The translations under genes and the position numbers were made by a program. From NCBI GenBank assembly GCA_020060385.1, contig JAGVAH010000082.1, forward strand, positions 1-64,000: a stretch of DNA of 64,000 nucleotides, written 5' to 3'. The stretch is from Syntrophobacterales bacterium (GTDB taxonomy: Bacteria; Desulfobacterota; Desulfobaccia; Desulfobaccales; 0-14-0-80-60-11). Each line of letters starts with the position of its first letter. Within the stretch, counting starts at the first letter, position 1. Below, piece by piece: positions 1,793 to 22,550 of the stretch. Below the pieces are notes generated by a model. That model had not been told where the DNA came from. It was given only the letters and a program-made list of their open reading frames with translations, and searched no databases.

Positions 1793-2365
1793 TTAGATCC
1801 TGATATTGATCCGGGGGAGGTTGGCCTTTTCCTGGGCATAATAGAGGGCCTGGTTTTCGTAAACCTGGCGACCCGCGGCCAGGGTCCGGAGAGGTTTGGG
1901 GACCGGCACGAGATTAGATGGGGCCTTTTGGATTTCCGGGGAGAATCCCAGGGTGGCCGCAACTTGGGCCGCGGCCTGATCTTGGCTGGGGGTGGGGAGT
2001 TGGTCTGGGGCTCTCTGGCCCGGGGCAAGAACGGGAAGGCTTGCCGGTTCCGGGGCCAGGTCAGGTTGGGGCCCGGCCAGGCTCCAGGCGGCCTCAGAGA
2101 GGCTGGCGGCAGATTGCTGCTGTGTTTGCCAGGCCTCCCGAAAAACTGGATTGCCTCTGAGAAGTGTGGCCAGCTCCTGGGTTCGTCCGTTTTGCTGGAG
2201 CTGTTGGATATAGGCCAGGGCTTCTTCCGGGGTCTCGACCCCGGGGGGGCTTAATAAGGCCTGGAGACGCCACGGGGCTGGCTTTATTAGGGCTGAGTGC
2301 TGTCCAGCCCTCTGATCAGGCCAGGGTATTTGCCCCAGATTCTGGATAGGTTGCACAAAACCCAA
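1793..2365 (-). CDS. Hypothetical Gln/Pro/Ala-rich protein
   Basis: A 190-residue frame starting at TTG, with AAGGAAG about 5-8 bases upstream. It has no signal peptide and no recognised domain. The middle (residues 45-70, TPEEALAYIQQLQQNGRTQELATLL) looks helical, a Pro/Gln-rich low-complexity stretch follows, and a more conserved-looking C-terminus ends QVYENQALYYAQEKANLPRI. Third-position GC matches neighbouring genes, which favours real coding. The ending resembles short structural C-termini of exported or appendage-related proteins, but I cannot assign it. Overlapping frames on the other strand look like shadows. Confidence 0.5.
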   Translation of the reverse strand: MGFVQPIQNLGQIPWPDQRAGQHSALIKPAPWRLQALLSPPGVETPEEALAYIQQLQQNGRTQELATLLRGNPVFREAWQTQQQSAASLSEAAWSLAGPQPDLAPEPASLPVLAPGQRAPDQLPTPSQDQAAAQVAATLGFSPEIQKAPSNLVPVPKPLRTLAAGRQVYENQALYYAQEKANLPRINIRI

Positions 2366-2891
2366 AAGAACTTCCTTTTCTTGTCGGCTTTCCGGCTTCT
2401 TGCCGGGCTCTCAGGTTTTTATCCGGAATCAGGCAATGCTCTTCTCCATCCCTTCCCACTTGCCGCTAATTACTGGCCCCCCAGACGGCAAAAAAACCGG
2501 GGCCTTTTTCCAGACCCCCAGAAGACAAAAAAAAACCGGGGCCCCTTTCCAGGCAACCCGGCTATCTCTGGCAAGCTGAGACCCGCGGCTTTCCGCCCCC
2601 ACCTCACGATGGGTTCGGCTTGTTCTGGTTTCTGTAAAGTTAAAGAGGGATCAGCCCCTTGTCAAGTCAAATCAACTTTAACAAAGTTTAAAAATTTTAT
2701 ATTTTTTTTAAAATATTTTACGAAGCGATGGTCATTATCCCCCCCTATGCCTCCATGGCCCGCGGCCCTGGACTGCCAGCAAGCTTGGCTTTTTCCCAGG
2801 GATTGTGGTATCTTTACCCTCAAACTTCCTAAATAAATCAAGGGTCAGCACCGGAGAAAGCCTGGGGCTGACTTGCCTGATTGGGGCGGAC
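2366..2891. other. Intergenic region upstream of nnr
   Basis: No convincing gene. Two near-copies of an A-run followed by CCGGGGCC (around 2490-2505 and 2527-2545) form a short direct repeat with terminator-like character. An extremely AT-rich patch at 2680-2720 is a likely promoter region for the nnr operon. The nnr frame is open upstream of 2892 but has no good start there. Confidence 0.45.
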
Positions 2892-18962: not shown

Positions 18963-19088
18963 TTAGTTCTGATTGGCAATGCCCGAGGTATGGCAAACCT
19001 GGGCCGCCGTCTGTCCTTGCGCTAAGGCCATCTCTGATTCCCGCAGCTTACCAATGATCTGCTCTGTAGCATACTGTTTCCTGCTCAT
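18963..19088 (-). pseudogene. IS3-type transposase OrfA remnant (N-terminus)
   Basis: The frame begins MSRKQYATEQIIGKLRESEM and continues ALAQGQTAAQVCH-SGI, which matches the helix-turn-helix N-terminus of IS3-family OrfA proteins. A stop cuts it after about 41 residues, before the rest of OrfA and all of OrfB. AGAGGGGG lies 7-12 bases before its ATG. No inverted repeats or flanking duplications are visible, so the element is a dead fragment. Confidence 0.75.
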
Positions 19089-19358: not shown

Positions 19359-19387
19359 TTGACAAAATTTTTCATTACTCCTAGTGT
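19359..19387 (+). promoter_or_regulatory. Promoter of the riboswitch-controlled Kelch protein gene
   Basis: TTGACA (19359-19364) and TAGTGT (19382-19387) are separated by exactly 17 bases in otherwise AT-rich DNA. The predicted start, near 19394, falls at the first base of the GEMM aptamer. Confidence 0.7.
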
Positions 19388-19393
19388 GGATTT

Positions 19394-19476
19394 TTAATGA
19401 AAAAGCCAAATCCGTCGTGAGGCGGAGACGGAAAACCACGGGTCTCGCTTTAGGAGAGATAGCCGGGTTGCCTAAA
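19394..19476 (+). ncRNA. GEMM-I (cyclic di-GMP class) riboswitch aptamer
   Basis: Reading 5' to 3': the AAAAAGCCAAA entry strand, a hairpin TCCGTC-GTGA-GGCGGA with a GNRA tetraloop, the core GACGGAAAACCACGGGTCT, a second irregular arm, and the hallmark closing strand AGCCGGGTTGCC. These are the GEMM-I blocks, including the tetraloop and its receptor side. Known members bind c-di-GMP; a subclass in related bacteria binds 3',3'-cGAMP, and the base that decides this could not be aligned with certainty. It lies between a good promoter and the 980-residue secreted protein gene. Confidence 0.87.
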
Positions 19477-19494
19477 AAGCAATCCGGCTTTTTT
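19461..19494 (+). terminator. Riboswitch expression platform: terminator hairpin
   Basis: AGCCGGGTTGC (19461-19471) pairs with GCAATCCGGCT (19479-19489), followed by a T-run. The 5' arm is also the last strand of the aptamer, so aptamer and terminator exclude each other. Ligand binding should prevent termination, giving an ON switch; this direction is inferred from the overlap. Confidence 0.8.
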
Positions 19495-19544
19495 GTTACA
19501 ACCAGGGGAGCACAATCTGCCTTTTATTTAGAGGAGATAACAGC

Positions 19545-22487
19545 ATGGACAGGCTAAGGAAGAGTTGGTGTACTTTTCCTCAACCGCGGCACCTGGCAGC
19601 CATAATTATTCTGGCAACCCTGACCCTTGGCTTGGCTCTGCCGGCCACCGGCGCCACCGGCGCCTGGAGCTTCACCGGCTCACTCCACGAGTCCCGCTTC
19701 TATCACACGGCCACTCTCTTGCCCAACGGCCAGGTGTTAGTGGTGGGCGGCTATAAGGGCGGTAATTGGCCTAATGCGAATGAACTGACTAGTGCGGAGC
19801 TTTATGATCCGGCCACCGGCGCCTGGAGCTACGCCGGCACCAACCACCAGGCCCGTTTCTCTCACACGGCCACCCTGTTGCCCAATGGCAAGGTGTTAGT
19901 GGTAGGTGGCTTAGGTAGCAACGGTTTAATAGCTAATGCTGAGCTTTATGATCCGGCCAGCGACACCTGGAGCCCCACCGGCTCCCCCAGCCAGAACCGC
20001 CTCAATCACACGGCCACCCTGTTGCCCAATGGCAAGGTGTTAGTGGCATCTGGCTGGGGCTACGCTGGTTATATAGCCGGGGCGGAGCTTTATGATCCAA
20101 CCAGCGGCACCTGGACCCCCACTGGCTCTCTCAGCAAGGCCCGTTACGTACACACAGCCACCCTCTTGCCCAACGGCAAGGTGTTGGTGGCGGGCGGCTA
20201 TAACCACTACTACAGTAATGTACTCAGCGCGGAGCTTTATGATCCGGCCAGCGGCGCCTGGACCCCCATCGGCTCCCTCGGCTCGGGCCGCTACCATCAC
20301 ACGGCCACTCTCCTGCCCAACGGCCGGGTGTTAATAGCGGGCGGCTATGGCTCTTATGCATATACTGCGGAACTTTATGATCCAACCAGCGGCGCCTGGA
20401 CCCCCACCGGCTCCCTCAGTCAGTACCGCTCCTGGCACACGGCCACCCTTTTGCCCAACGGCCAGGTGTTAGTGGCAGGTGGCGGCAACACTACTTCAGG
20501 TGGCGCCGACGGTTATTTATATTCTGCGGATTATGGGGAACTTTATGATCCGGCCAGCGGCGCCTGGACCCCCACCGGCCGCCACTGCCAGTCCCGCTTC
20601 CGACACACGGCCACTCTCTTGCCCAACGGCCAGGTGTTAGTGGCAGGTGGCGTTGGCGCTGCTGGTCAATTAACCAGTGCGGAGCTTTATCCACAACAAC
20701 CGCTTACCGCCAATGCCGGCCCCAACCAGACGGTGCAGGCCGGGGCTCTGGTGCAACTGGATGGCTCCAACTCCACTCCGGCAGGAGAGATCGTCTCCTT
20801 CCAATGGACGCAGTTATCAGGACCGGCAGTTGCCATGTCCGACCCCACTATTGCCAGGCCGACCTTTACCGCCCCGCAGGTGGGGAGCGGCGGCGCCTCC
20901 CTGGTGTTCCAATTAACCGTAACCGATAGAAACGGCCAGAGTTCCCAGGCCACCTGCACGATCTCGGTGACCTGGCTCAATCAGCCGCCCGTGGCCAATG
21001 CCGGCGGTGACCAGACGAAGAACGCCGGGGAGACAGTAACCCTGAATGGTTCCGCCTCCGCCGATCCGGATGACGGCATCGCCTCCTATGCCTGGACGCA
21101 AACGGGCGGCCCCTTGGTGCTACTCTCCGATCCCGCCGCCGCCAATCCCACCTTCACCGCCCCGCCCGTAGGCATGGCCGGCGCGGCTCTCACCTTCCAG
21201 TTAACCGTAGCCGACAACCACGGCCTCACTAATACCAGTTCCTGCATTGTCAACGTGACCTGGGTCAACCAGCCGCCCGTGGCCAATGCCGGCGGTGACC
21301 AGACGAAGAACGCCGGAGAGACGGTAACCCTGAACGGCGCCGGCTCCACTGATAACGATGACGGCATCGCCTCCTATCAATGGACGCAGCTAGCCGGGAC
21401 GCCGGTCACTTTGAGTAATCCCACGGCTGCCCAACCCTCCTTCACCGCCCCGCATGTGGGTTACGGCGGCGAGGTGCTAACCTTCCAGGTGACGGTGACC
21501 GACATGGGCGGACTCAAATCCACCGCCCAGTGTGCAGTGAACGTACTGTGGGTGAACACCCCGCCGGTTGCTAAAGTTGCGGGTAACCTGACAATTCTGA
21601 GCAAAGACCAGGGCCTCACGACCCTGGGAGGCACTGCCAGTGATGCGGACGGTGATTCCCTGACTTACAGATGGCTGGAAGGGACCACCGCCCTGGCCCC
21701 CAGCCAGCAGGTAGGGGTGGGCGGGCAGACGCCCCTTAACCTGGGAACCCTATCCATGCCGCTGGCCATTGGCCAGCACACCCTTAACCTGGAGGTAAGC
21801 GACGGCTATGCTACCGCCACGGACACGATGATCCTTACCATTGGCAATTCGGCCCCGTCTGTGGCCCCCACCGGAGCAGGCACCTTTCAGTTAAACACCC
21901 CGGTTCCCTTGGCTGGACAAGTGGCGGACTATGATGGCGATCAGTTGACCTGTCAGTGGCTAGAGGGAGAGACAGTCCTAAACAGCGCCCAGGTGCAGAC
22001 CGCGGCAGGGGGAGCGCCGGTTAACCTTGCTCCTTTTACCATCTCTAACTTGCCGGTGGGCACCCATATCCTGACGCTGCTAGCCAGTGACGGGGTAAAC
22101 AGCCCGGTGGCCAAGACTGTTACCGTCAACATCATCGACACTACCGCTCCGACCCTGGCCCCCGTAGCCGACAAAACCATGCTGTGGCCGCCCAACAAGC
22201 GGATGGTGCCAGTCACCATCAAAGCCAATGCCTGTGACAATAGCGGCCAGCCGGTTACATTGAATGTCGTGGTGGCCTGTAATGAGGCTCAAAACGGGGA
22301 AGTGTACTGGACAACCCCGGTCATCGACCAGGCAACGGCGATGATTTACTTGCAACTTCAAGCCGATCGCCAGGGGAAGGGAAGCGGCAGGCAATATACC
22401 ATCACCATCACGGCCACGGATCAGTCCGGCAATGAGAGCACCGCTAATGTGAAAATTTTAGTACCGCATGATCAGGGGAAAAATTAG
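19545..22487 (+). CDS. Secreted seven-Kelch / PKD-domain surface protein under riboswitch control
   Basis: 980 residues: signal peptide (cleavage near residue 35), then seven Kelch-type units of about 47-55 residues (to about 383), each with HTATLLPNG-VLV-GG and AELYDP, just enough for one seven-bladed propeller. Three nearly identical PKD domains follow (about 384-480, 481-575, 576-671; PPVANAGGDQTKNAGETV repeated), two Ig/cadherin-like domains (672-767, 768-864; DGDSLTYRWLEG and DGDQLTCQWLEG) and a last domain (865-980) starting TAPTLAPVADKTMLWPPN. No sorting signal or anchor is visible. It is probably an exported adhesin or matrix protein, consistent with c-di-GMP control. GAGGAGATAACAGC precedes the ATG. 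Confidence 0.9.
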   Translation: MDRLRKSWCTFPQPRHLAAIIILATLTLGLALPATGATGAWSFTGSLHESRFYHTATLLPNGQVLVVGGYKGGNWPNANELTSAELYDPATGAWSYAGTNHQARFSHTATLLPNGKVLVVGGLGSNGLIANAELYDPASDTWSPTGSPSQNRLNHTATLLPNGKVLVASGWGYAGYIAGAELYDPTSGTWTPTGSLSKARYVHTATLLPNGKVLVAGGYNHYYSNVLSAELYDPASGAWTPIGSLGSGRYHHTATLLPNGRVLIAGGYGSYAYTAELYDPTSGAWTPTGSLSQYRSWHTATLLPNGQVLVAGGGNTTSGGADGYLYSADYGELYDPASGAWTPTGRHCQSRFRHTATLLPNGQVLVAGGVGAAGQLTSAELYPQQPLTANAGPNQTVQAGALVQLDGSNSTPAGEIVSFQWTQLSGPAVAMSDPTIARPTFTAPQVGSGGASLVFQLTVTDRNGQSSQATCTISVTWLNQPPVANAGGDQTKNAGETVTLNGSASADPDDGIASYAWTQTGGPLVLLSDPAAANPTFTAPPVGMAGAALTFQLTVADNHGLTNTSSCIVNVTWVNQPPVANAGGDQTKNAGETVTLNGAGSTDNDDGIASYQWTQLAGTPVTLSNPTAAQPSFTAPHVGYGGEVLTFQVTVTDMGGLKSTAQCAVNVLWVNTPPVAKVAGNLTILSKDQGLTTLGGTASDADGDSLTYRWLEGTTALAPSQQVGVGGQTPLNLGTLSMPLAIGQHTLNLEVSDGYATATDTMILTIGNSAPSVAPTGAGTFQLNTPVPLAGQVADYDGDQLTCQWLEGETVLNSAQVQTAAGGAPVNLAPFTISNLPVGTHILTLLASDGVNSPVAKTVTVNIIDTTAPTLAPVADKTMLWPPNKRMVPVTIKANACDNSGQPVTLNVVVACNEAQNGEVYWTTPVIDQATAMIYLQLQADRQGKGSGRQYTITITATDQSGNESTANVKILVPHDQGKN

Positions 22488-22517: not shown

Positions 22518-22550
22518 AGGCAGGGTCAGAAATGGCCCTGCCTCTTTTTT
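22518..22550 (+). terminator. Rho-independent terminator after the Kelch/PKD gene
   Basis: AGGCAGGGTCA pairs with TGGCCCTGCCT around a GAAA loop and is followed by CTTTTTT. Confidence 0.88.

Follow-up and report, generated by a model that had tools for sequence, protein, structure and literature searches.

A GEMM-type riboswitch stands directly in front of a gene for a 980-aa Kelch/PKD protein, and we consider it likely that it acts as a c-di-GMP-responsive transcriptional ON switch. A large exported protein would thereby be placed under direct cyclic-dinucleotide control. The riboswitch is of a familiar kind; of more value are the comparison of two aptamer subclasses and a hybrid ligand pocket. 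The window (the whole stretch of 64,000 nucleotides analysed, C16:1-64000) belongs to a genome of 4.15 Mb with six GEMM aptamers, two of them inside the window. The features are the following.

19359..19387 (+): putative promoter, TTGACA at 19359-19364, 17-nt spacer, TAGTGT at 19382-19387 (from sequence; same -35 spacing in the type-B subclass)
19396..19476 (+): GEMM/c-di-GMP-I type aptamer of the short-P3 "type B" form (RF03167, 72.6 bits; RF01051, 72.0 bits)
19405 (+): specificity base nt 20, a G; C21 is 19406 and C22 is 19407 (alignment to RF03167)
19411..19426 (+): P2 hairpin with GUGA (GNRA) tetraloop (alignment, folding)
19430..19432 (+): G45, G46 (partner of C21) and A47 (the intercalating A) (alignment to RF03167)
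19463..19472 (+): aptamer 3' strand (3' side of P3; C92 is 19471, C93 is 19472), also most of the terminator 5' arm (folding)
19461..19495 (+): intrinsic terminator, 11-bp stem 19461-19471/19479-19489, -18.3 kcal/mol, followed by T6 (terminator scan, folding)
19545..22487 (+): 980-aa exported protein whose N-terminus resembles a signal peptide, with a Kelch propeller of seven blades (about residues 37-383), three K319L-like PKD domains and further Ig-like domains (Pfam, repeat count, AlphaFold, Foldseek)
22518..22543 (+): terminator hairpin downstream of the Kelch gene, which makes a single-gene unit (terminator scan)
2548..2628 (-): second type-B aptamer of the window, its P1 being CCAG/CUGG, with a TTGACA promoter and a terminator (RF03167, 64.5 bits)
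1796..2365 (-): 190-aa ORF behind the second aptamer, no Pfam family

Aptamer, promoter and terminator

The best cmscan match at 19396-19476(+) was RF03167 (c-di-GMP-I-GGC; untruncated, with a window E-value of 2.8e-15), with a gathering cut-off of 59 bits; the RF01051 model (c-di-GMP-I, GEMM-I) also matched above its cut-off of 35 bits. The covariance search named by the first-pass annotation as a check of its GEMM aptamer therefore gave scores well over threshold, and the GNRA tetraloop it had described is the GUGA at 19417-19420. Neither model gave a match over cut-off in 14 control genomes, and the RF03167 score of this aptamer is the second highest in its own genome. The pocket letters of c-di-GMP-I are all present (G20 at 19405, A47 at 19432, C92 at 19471), and the pocket pairs are C21-G46 (19406-19431) and C22-G45 (19407-19430). 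The numbering of nt 20 is tied to that of the cGAMP riboswitch structure, in which A14 corresponds to nt 20 and the further letters are C15-G40, A41 and C75 (PMC6274999).

The P1 stem is nearly absent. One standard pair stands beside the pocket (G19399-C19472), followed by U-U and A-A; slipped A-U pairs would be possible only if transcription started before 19393. Numerous related copies form two to four pairs in the same register, as in CCAG/CUGG of the aptamer at 2548, although 17 copies whose start is shifted score zero in this register-fixed count. In the pilM riboswitch of Geobacter metallireducens, loss of P1 raises the KD from ~0.3-0.4 to ~12-19 µM, an affinity cost of about 40-fold, whereas Clostridium difficile Cd1 still binds at 0.25 µM without detectable P1 (PMC9262584). 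From these two precedents a low affinity is predicted for the 19396 aptamer, that is, a lower sensitivity and not necessarily a loss of function. Since it would bind more weakly than the copy at 2548, the Kelch gene may respond to high signal only, and the P1 differences among copies offer a natural affinity series. The 2548-2628(-) aptamer is absent from the first-pass annotation; together with its 190-aa ORF it is present in six of the seven genomes of the genus.

That annotation had also placed a promoter with a 17-base spacer exactly at the aptamer. The TTGACA box (6/6 matches to consensus), the spacer and the position adjoining the aptamer bear this out as far as sequence evidence goes; the -10 box, TAGTGT, is the weak part, matching at 3/6 positions only, and for this reason the promoter is missing from the automatic promoter scan. 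Transcription is predicted to start at or just before the aptamer, at about 19393-19396.

Aptamer and terminator exclude each other by base pairing. The terminator stem takes the 3' strand of P3 together with C92 (19471), the base that pairs with the ligand, so that strand 19461-19471 is common to both structures, as the first-pass annotation had said of the last aptamer strand. Minimum free energy folds of growing transcripts were aptamer-like up to 19483 and had switched to the terminator at 19489. At single loci the terminator pairing was only mildly better than with shuffled downstream sequence (median shuffle fraction 0.2; window 0.21), because the terminator arm is GC-rich. Since the terminator would claim the 3' strand of the aptamer, with C19471 that pairs the ligand, ligand should give read-through, and the ON logic predicted earlier thus holds on sequence evidence. 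In G. metallireducens, measurements have shown the pilM riboswitch to be an ON switch, and there C75, the equivalent of nt 92, goes into the terminator (PMC9262584).

From these elements we infer both the ligand and the sense in which the cell uses the switch, and propose the following course of events. Transcription would begin at or just before the aptamer. Between P1, P2 and P3 c-di-GMP would be held such that G19405 reads one guanine, C19471 pairs with the other and A19432 stacks between them. With ligand bound, 19463-19472 would be kept in the aptamer, no terminator would form and RNA polymerase would continue into the Kelch/PKD gene; in the absence of ligand, 19463-19472 would instead pair with 19479-19489 and transcription would stop.

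Two aptamer forms and the genes behind them

We compared 113 aptamers from the source genome and its relatives, 36 related genomes being covered. They fall into type A (G21-C46; 52 aptamers) and type B (C21-G46; 60 aptamers), with one of another form, and both types coexist in the same genomes. The statistics below use per-sequence shuffles as controls on sequences that are related, kinship being ignored. A TTGACA box (at least 5/6) at a near-fixed distance of about -44 to -48 from nt 20 precedes 68% of type-B aptamers (n=60; shuffled, 18%) and 13% of type A (shuffled, 14%). An overlapping terminator, with at least seven pairs joining the aptamer 3' strand to downstream sequence and with T>=5, follows 45 of 60 type-B aptamers, while a T-run at the terminator position is found in only 3 of 52 type-A aptamers. 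In the 54 type-B aptamers with a 6-bp P2 the loop is GNRA throughout (54/54), and the pairs of P2 differ in sequence between copies while 94-100% remain paired, i.e. they covary. The same genomes thus hold two GEMM architectures: one adjoins its promoter, carries a terminator and serves exported surface proteins, and the other lacks a terminator and serves Tad pili. Two type-B aptamers (L090, G008:C33; L137, G037:C75) carry ~100 nt inserted in the P3 loop.

The kind of downstream protein separates the two types. Type-A aptamers lie upstream of Tad/Flp pilus genes (TadE, 17/39; Tad, 7/39), and canonical copies lacking a terminator stand before Flp, TadE or TadG genes in the source genome (C77 and C24; L018, L019) and in relatives. 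A simple hydrophobicity rule alone fails to separate the targets, the first ORF looking exported for 40/54 type-B and 32/48 type-A aptamers, because membrane segments also occur in Tad proteins. A C-terminus of the form VPxP...LLGSGLLGL...RR, which is of the exosortase type, is found in many type-B targets, and PEP-CTERM family models match up to 12 of 43; others are M23 peptidases and polysaccharide deacetylases. In four genomes (G004, G008, G021, G024), 19 of 41 VPLPA-CTERM matches have a type-B aptamer at most 2 kb upstream, against ~0.1 expected by position alone, a count at E<=1 that includes many weak matches, a hand-counted overlap and one aptamer with C-A at 21-46. An exosortase was found in G004, G008 and G024, and type B often stands before VPxP-CTERM proteins where an exosortase exists. 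Genome G008 has eleven type-B aptamers (loci of the four genomes: L066-L071, L080-L090, L114-L124). In G024, which consists of one contig (3,282,536 bases), a stretch of 6.5 kb holds four aptamers before VPLPG-type surface proteins (L124); one is A20 beside three G20, a possible ligand split inside one cluster.

The target in the window is of a different make. Its Kelch part has exactly seven units (seven HTATLLPNG and seven ELY[D/P] motifs), and the AlphaFold model is a closed propeller (pLDDT 89.7, pTM 0.90; model only) that matches Kelch propellers in Foldseek, both as the first-pass annotation had stated. Three PKD and further Ig-like domains are also present as described there, but the PKD domains are 53-69% identical and not near-identical. 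The product is a putative surface or matrix protein; the first-pass annotation had proposed a matrix or adhesion protein. An enzyme of the galactose/glyoxal-oxidase type was considered for the Kelch domain and rejected: whole-enzyme profile matches were weak or below cut-off, and the propeller has one Cys (residue 348). The C-terminus (VKILVPHDQGKN) lacks the VPxP...RR sorting signal, and profile searches of the window's genome gave no VPLPA-CTERM match and no exosortase.

Within the genus, we found no orthologue of the Kelch gene linked to a riboswitch. Family members with related Kelch genes (<=57% identical over parts) have them on contigs in which no GEMM aptamer was detected, and the second Kelch gene of the genome (C24:20 kb) has none nearby; the pairing of aptamer and Kelch gene therefore seems recent or local. 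Directly upstream of the riboswitch, at 18963-19088(-), is a truncated ORF that we take to be an IS3-type orfA remnant. In the Geobacter-like genome G052, a canonical GEMM aptamer stands before a gene for a 1411-aa Kelch-domain protein (L150), a second and apparently independent GEMM-Kelch pairing.

Ligand and alternative readings

The alignment of the specificity base narrows the question of c-di-GMP or cGAMP, which the first-pass annotation had left open, to a c-di-GMP letter (G20) on a cGAMP-type scaffold. In its letters, type B is the cGAMP-riboswitch scaffold, with flipped C21-G46 and short P3, combined with G20. Among the type-B aptamers of the relatives nt 20 is G in 55/60 and A in 5/60, three of the latter in G052; in named genomes, which range from Desulfobacterota to Methylomonas, Ferrimonas and Idiomarina, it is G in 118 of 121 type-B matches. 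Seven of the eight GGDEF proteins of the source genome are canonical. The genome also encodes a predicted Hypr enzyme, the GAF-GGDEF protein at C62:29125-30198(-) (L157, L171), which has the Hypr signature GHLLGS (GHxxGS), a GGDEF motif and a non-Arg cross-dimer residue (Pro/Thr for Arg). Its base pocket has Ser for Asp and Val for the usual Asn; its best solved match is GacA of G. metallireducens (6d9m, E 1e-35), and orthologues occur throughout the order. The protein is possibly a cGAMP synthase with an unusual base pocket, its product being uncertain because the usual Asn is Val.

This enzyme gives weight to a reading in which 3',3'-cGAMP, alone or along with c-di-GMP, is the signal, with the lineage's Hypr enzyme as the source and with G20 on C21-G46 retaining cGAMP binding. 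Point changes in lower P2 affect ligand choice (PMC9262584), and lower P2 of the 19396 aptamer (C21-G46) has the cGAMP-riboswitch form, which we counted against c-di-GMP; C21-G46, short P3 and a terminator on the aptamer strand together make up the Geobacter cGAMP riboswitch scaffold. The distribution of type B speaks against it, for nt 20 is G and not A in nearly all copies, also where Hypr enzymes were not found. In the type-B (G20) genomes of Idiomarina, Ferrimonas and two methylotrophs, the 30 GGDEFs closest to Hypr among the matches listed all have Asp and include no Hypr (cGAMP-type) GGDEF, in a scan confined to GGDEF proteins and, among these, to the ones nearest to Hypr. Because type B occurs in such bacteria, c-di-GMP is favoured from the sequence comparison as the probable ligand. 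Filing the 19396 aptamer as a cGAMP riboswitch was ruled out by G20, and we regard cGAMP sensing, kept as a rival, as unlikely. That the type-B aptamers of Desulfobacca-like bacteria might read both c-di-GMP and Hypr-made cGAMP, one RNA integrating two messengers to control exported surface proteins, seems quite unlikely. The hybrid pocket, in lineages with and without Hypr enzymes, is natural material for the question of which letters set ligand choice.

Two further readings question the riboswitch class or its function. The leader might be a decayed aptamer copy with almost no P1 and no switching, leaving a terminator-attenuated or constitutively weak promoter region. The one-pair P1, the poor -10 box, the genus without a riboswitch-linked Kelch orthologue and the IS3-like remnant just upstream would fit; yet pocket bases, P2, P3, GNRA loop and terminator are all intact, the RF03167 score ranks second in the genome, and Cd1 binds without detectable P1 (PMC9262584), so we hold decay to be very unlikely. 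A c-di-GMP-I-GGC variant with a different ligand, suggested by the 0.6 bits by which RF03167 beats RF01051, is highly improbable: the RF03167 consensus has G at model position 37 (nt 47) where the window has A, and the near tie of scores reflects the common short-P3 scaffold. Assignment to that family, whose "GGC" we read from the family name and the Rfam consensus line, was ruled out by A47. A c-di-GMP-responsive ON switch is thus the reading we retain.

Relation to known systems

The literature searched yielded no paper that describes a Kelch protein as target of a c-di-GMP riboswitch, nor one that connects such a riboswitch with an exosortase. In one strain, Methylophaga GP59, c-di-GMP riboswitches have been linked to PEP-CTERM/VPLPA-CTERM genes (PMC12530212). 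Both cases share a GEMM riboswitch before exported surface-type proteins; unlike GP59, the Kelch target has no sorting signal and its genome no exosortase. With bacterial Kelch/PKD surface proteins the target shares the signal-peptide-like start, the seven-blade propeller and the PKD/Ig tail, but it differs in having a GEMM switch in front, a combination found within the family only here.

Among riboswitch classes, c-di-GMP-I (RF01051) shares a score over cut-off, a GNRA P2 and G20/A47/C92 with the window aptamer, which has C21-G46 instead of G21-C46, a shorter P3 and almost no P1. With c-di-GMP-I-GGC (RF03167), its best-scoring Rfam family, it has the overall scaffold in common, but A47 stands where the consensus has G, and 21-46 is C-G. 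The Geobacter cGAMP (GEMM-Ib) riboswitches such as pilM share C21-G46, the short P3, a terminator 5' arm formed by the aptamer 3' strand with nt 92, and ON control, which is predicted for the window aptamer. The difference from them is G20 instead of A20; compared with the G052 copies, the window aptamer also has C22 instead of U22 and a shorter stretch from nt 50 to the P3 GGGUCU strand.
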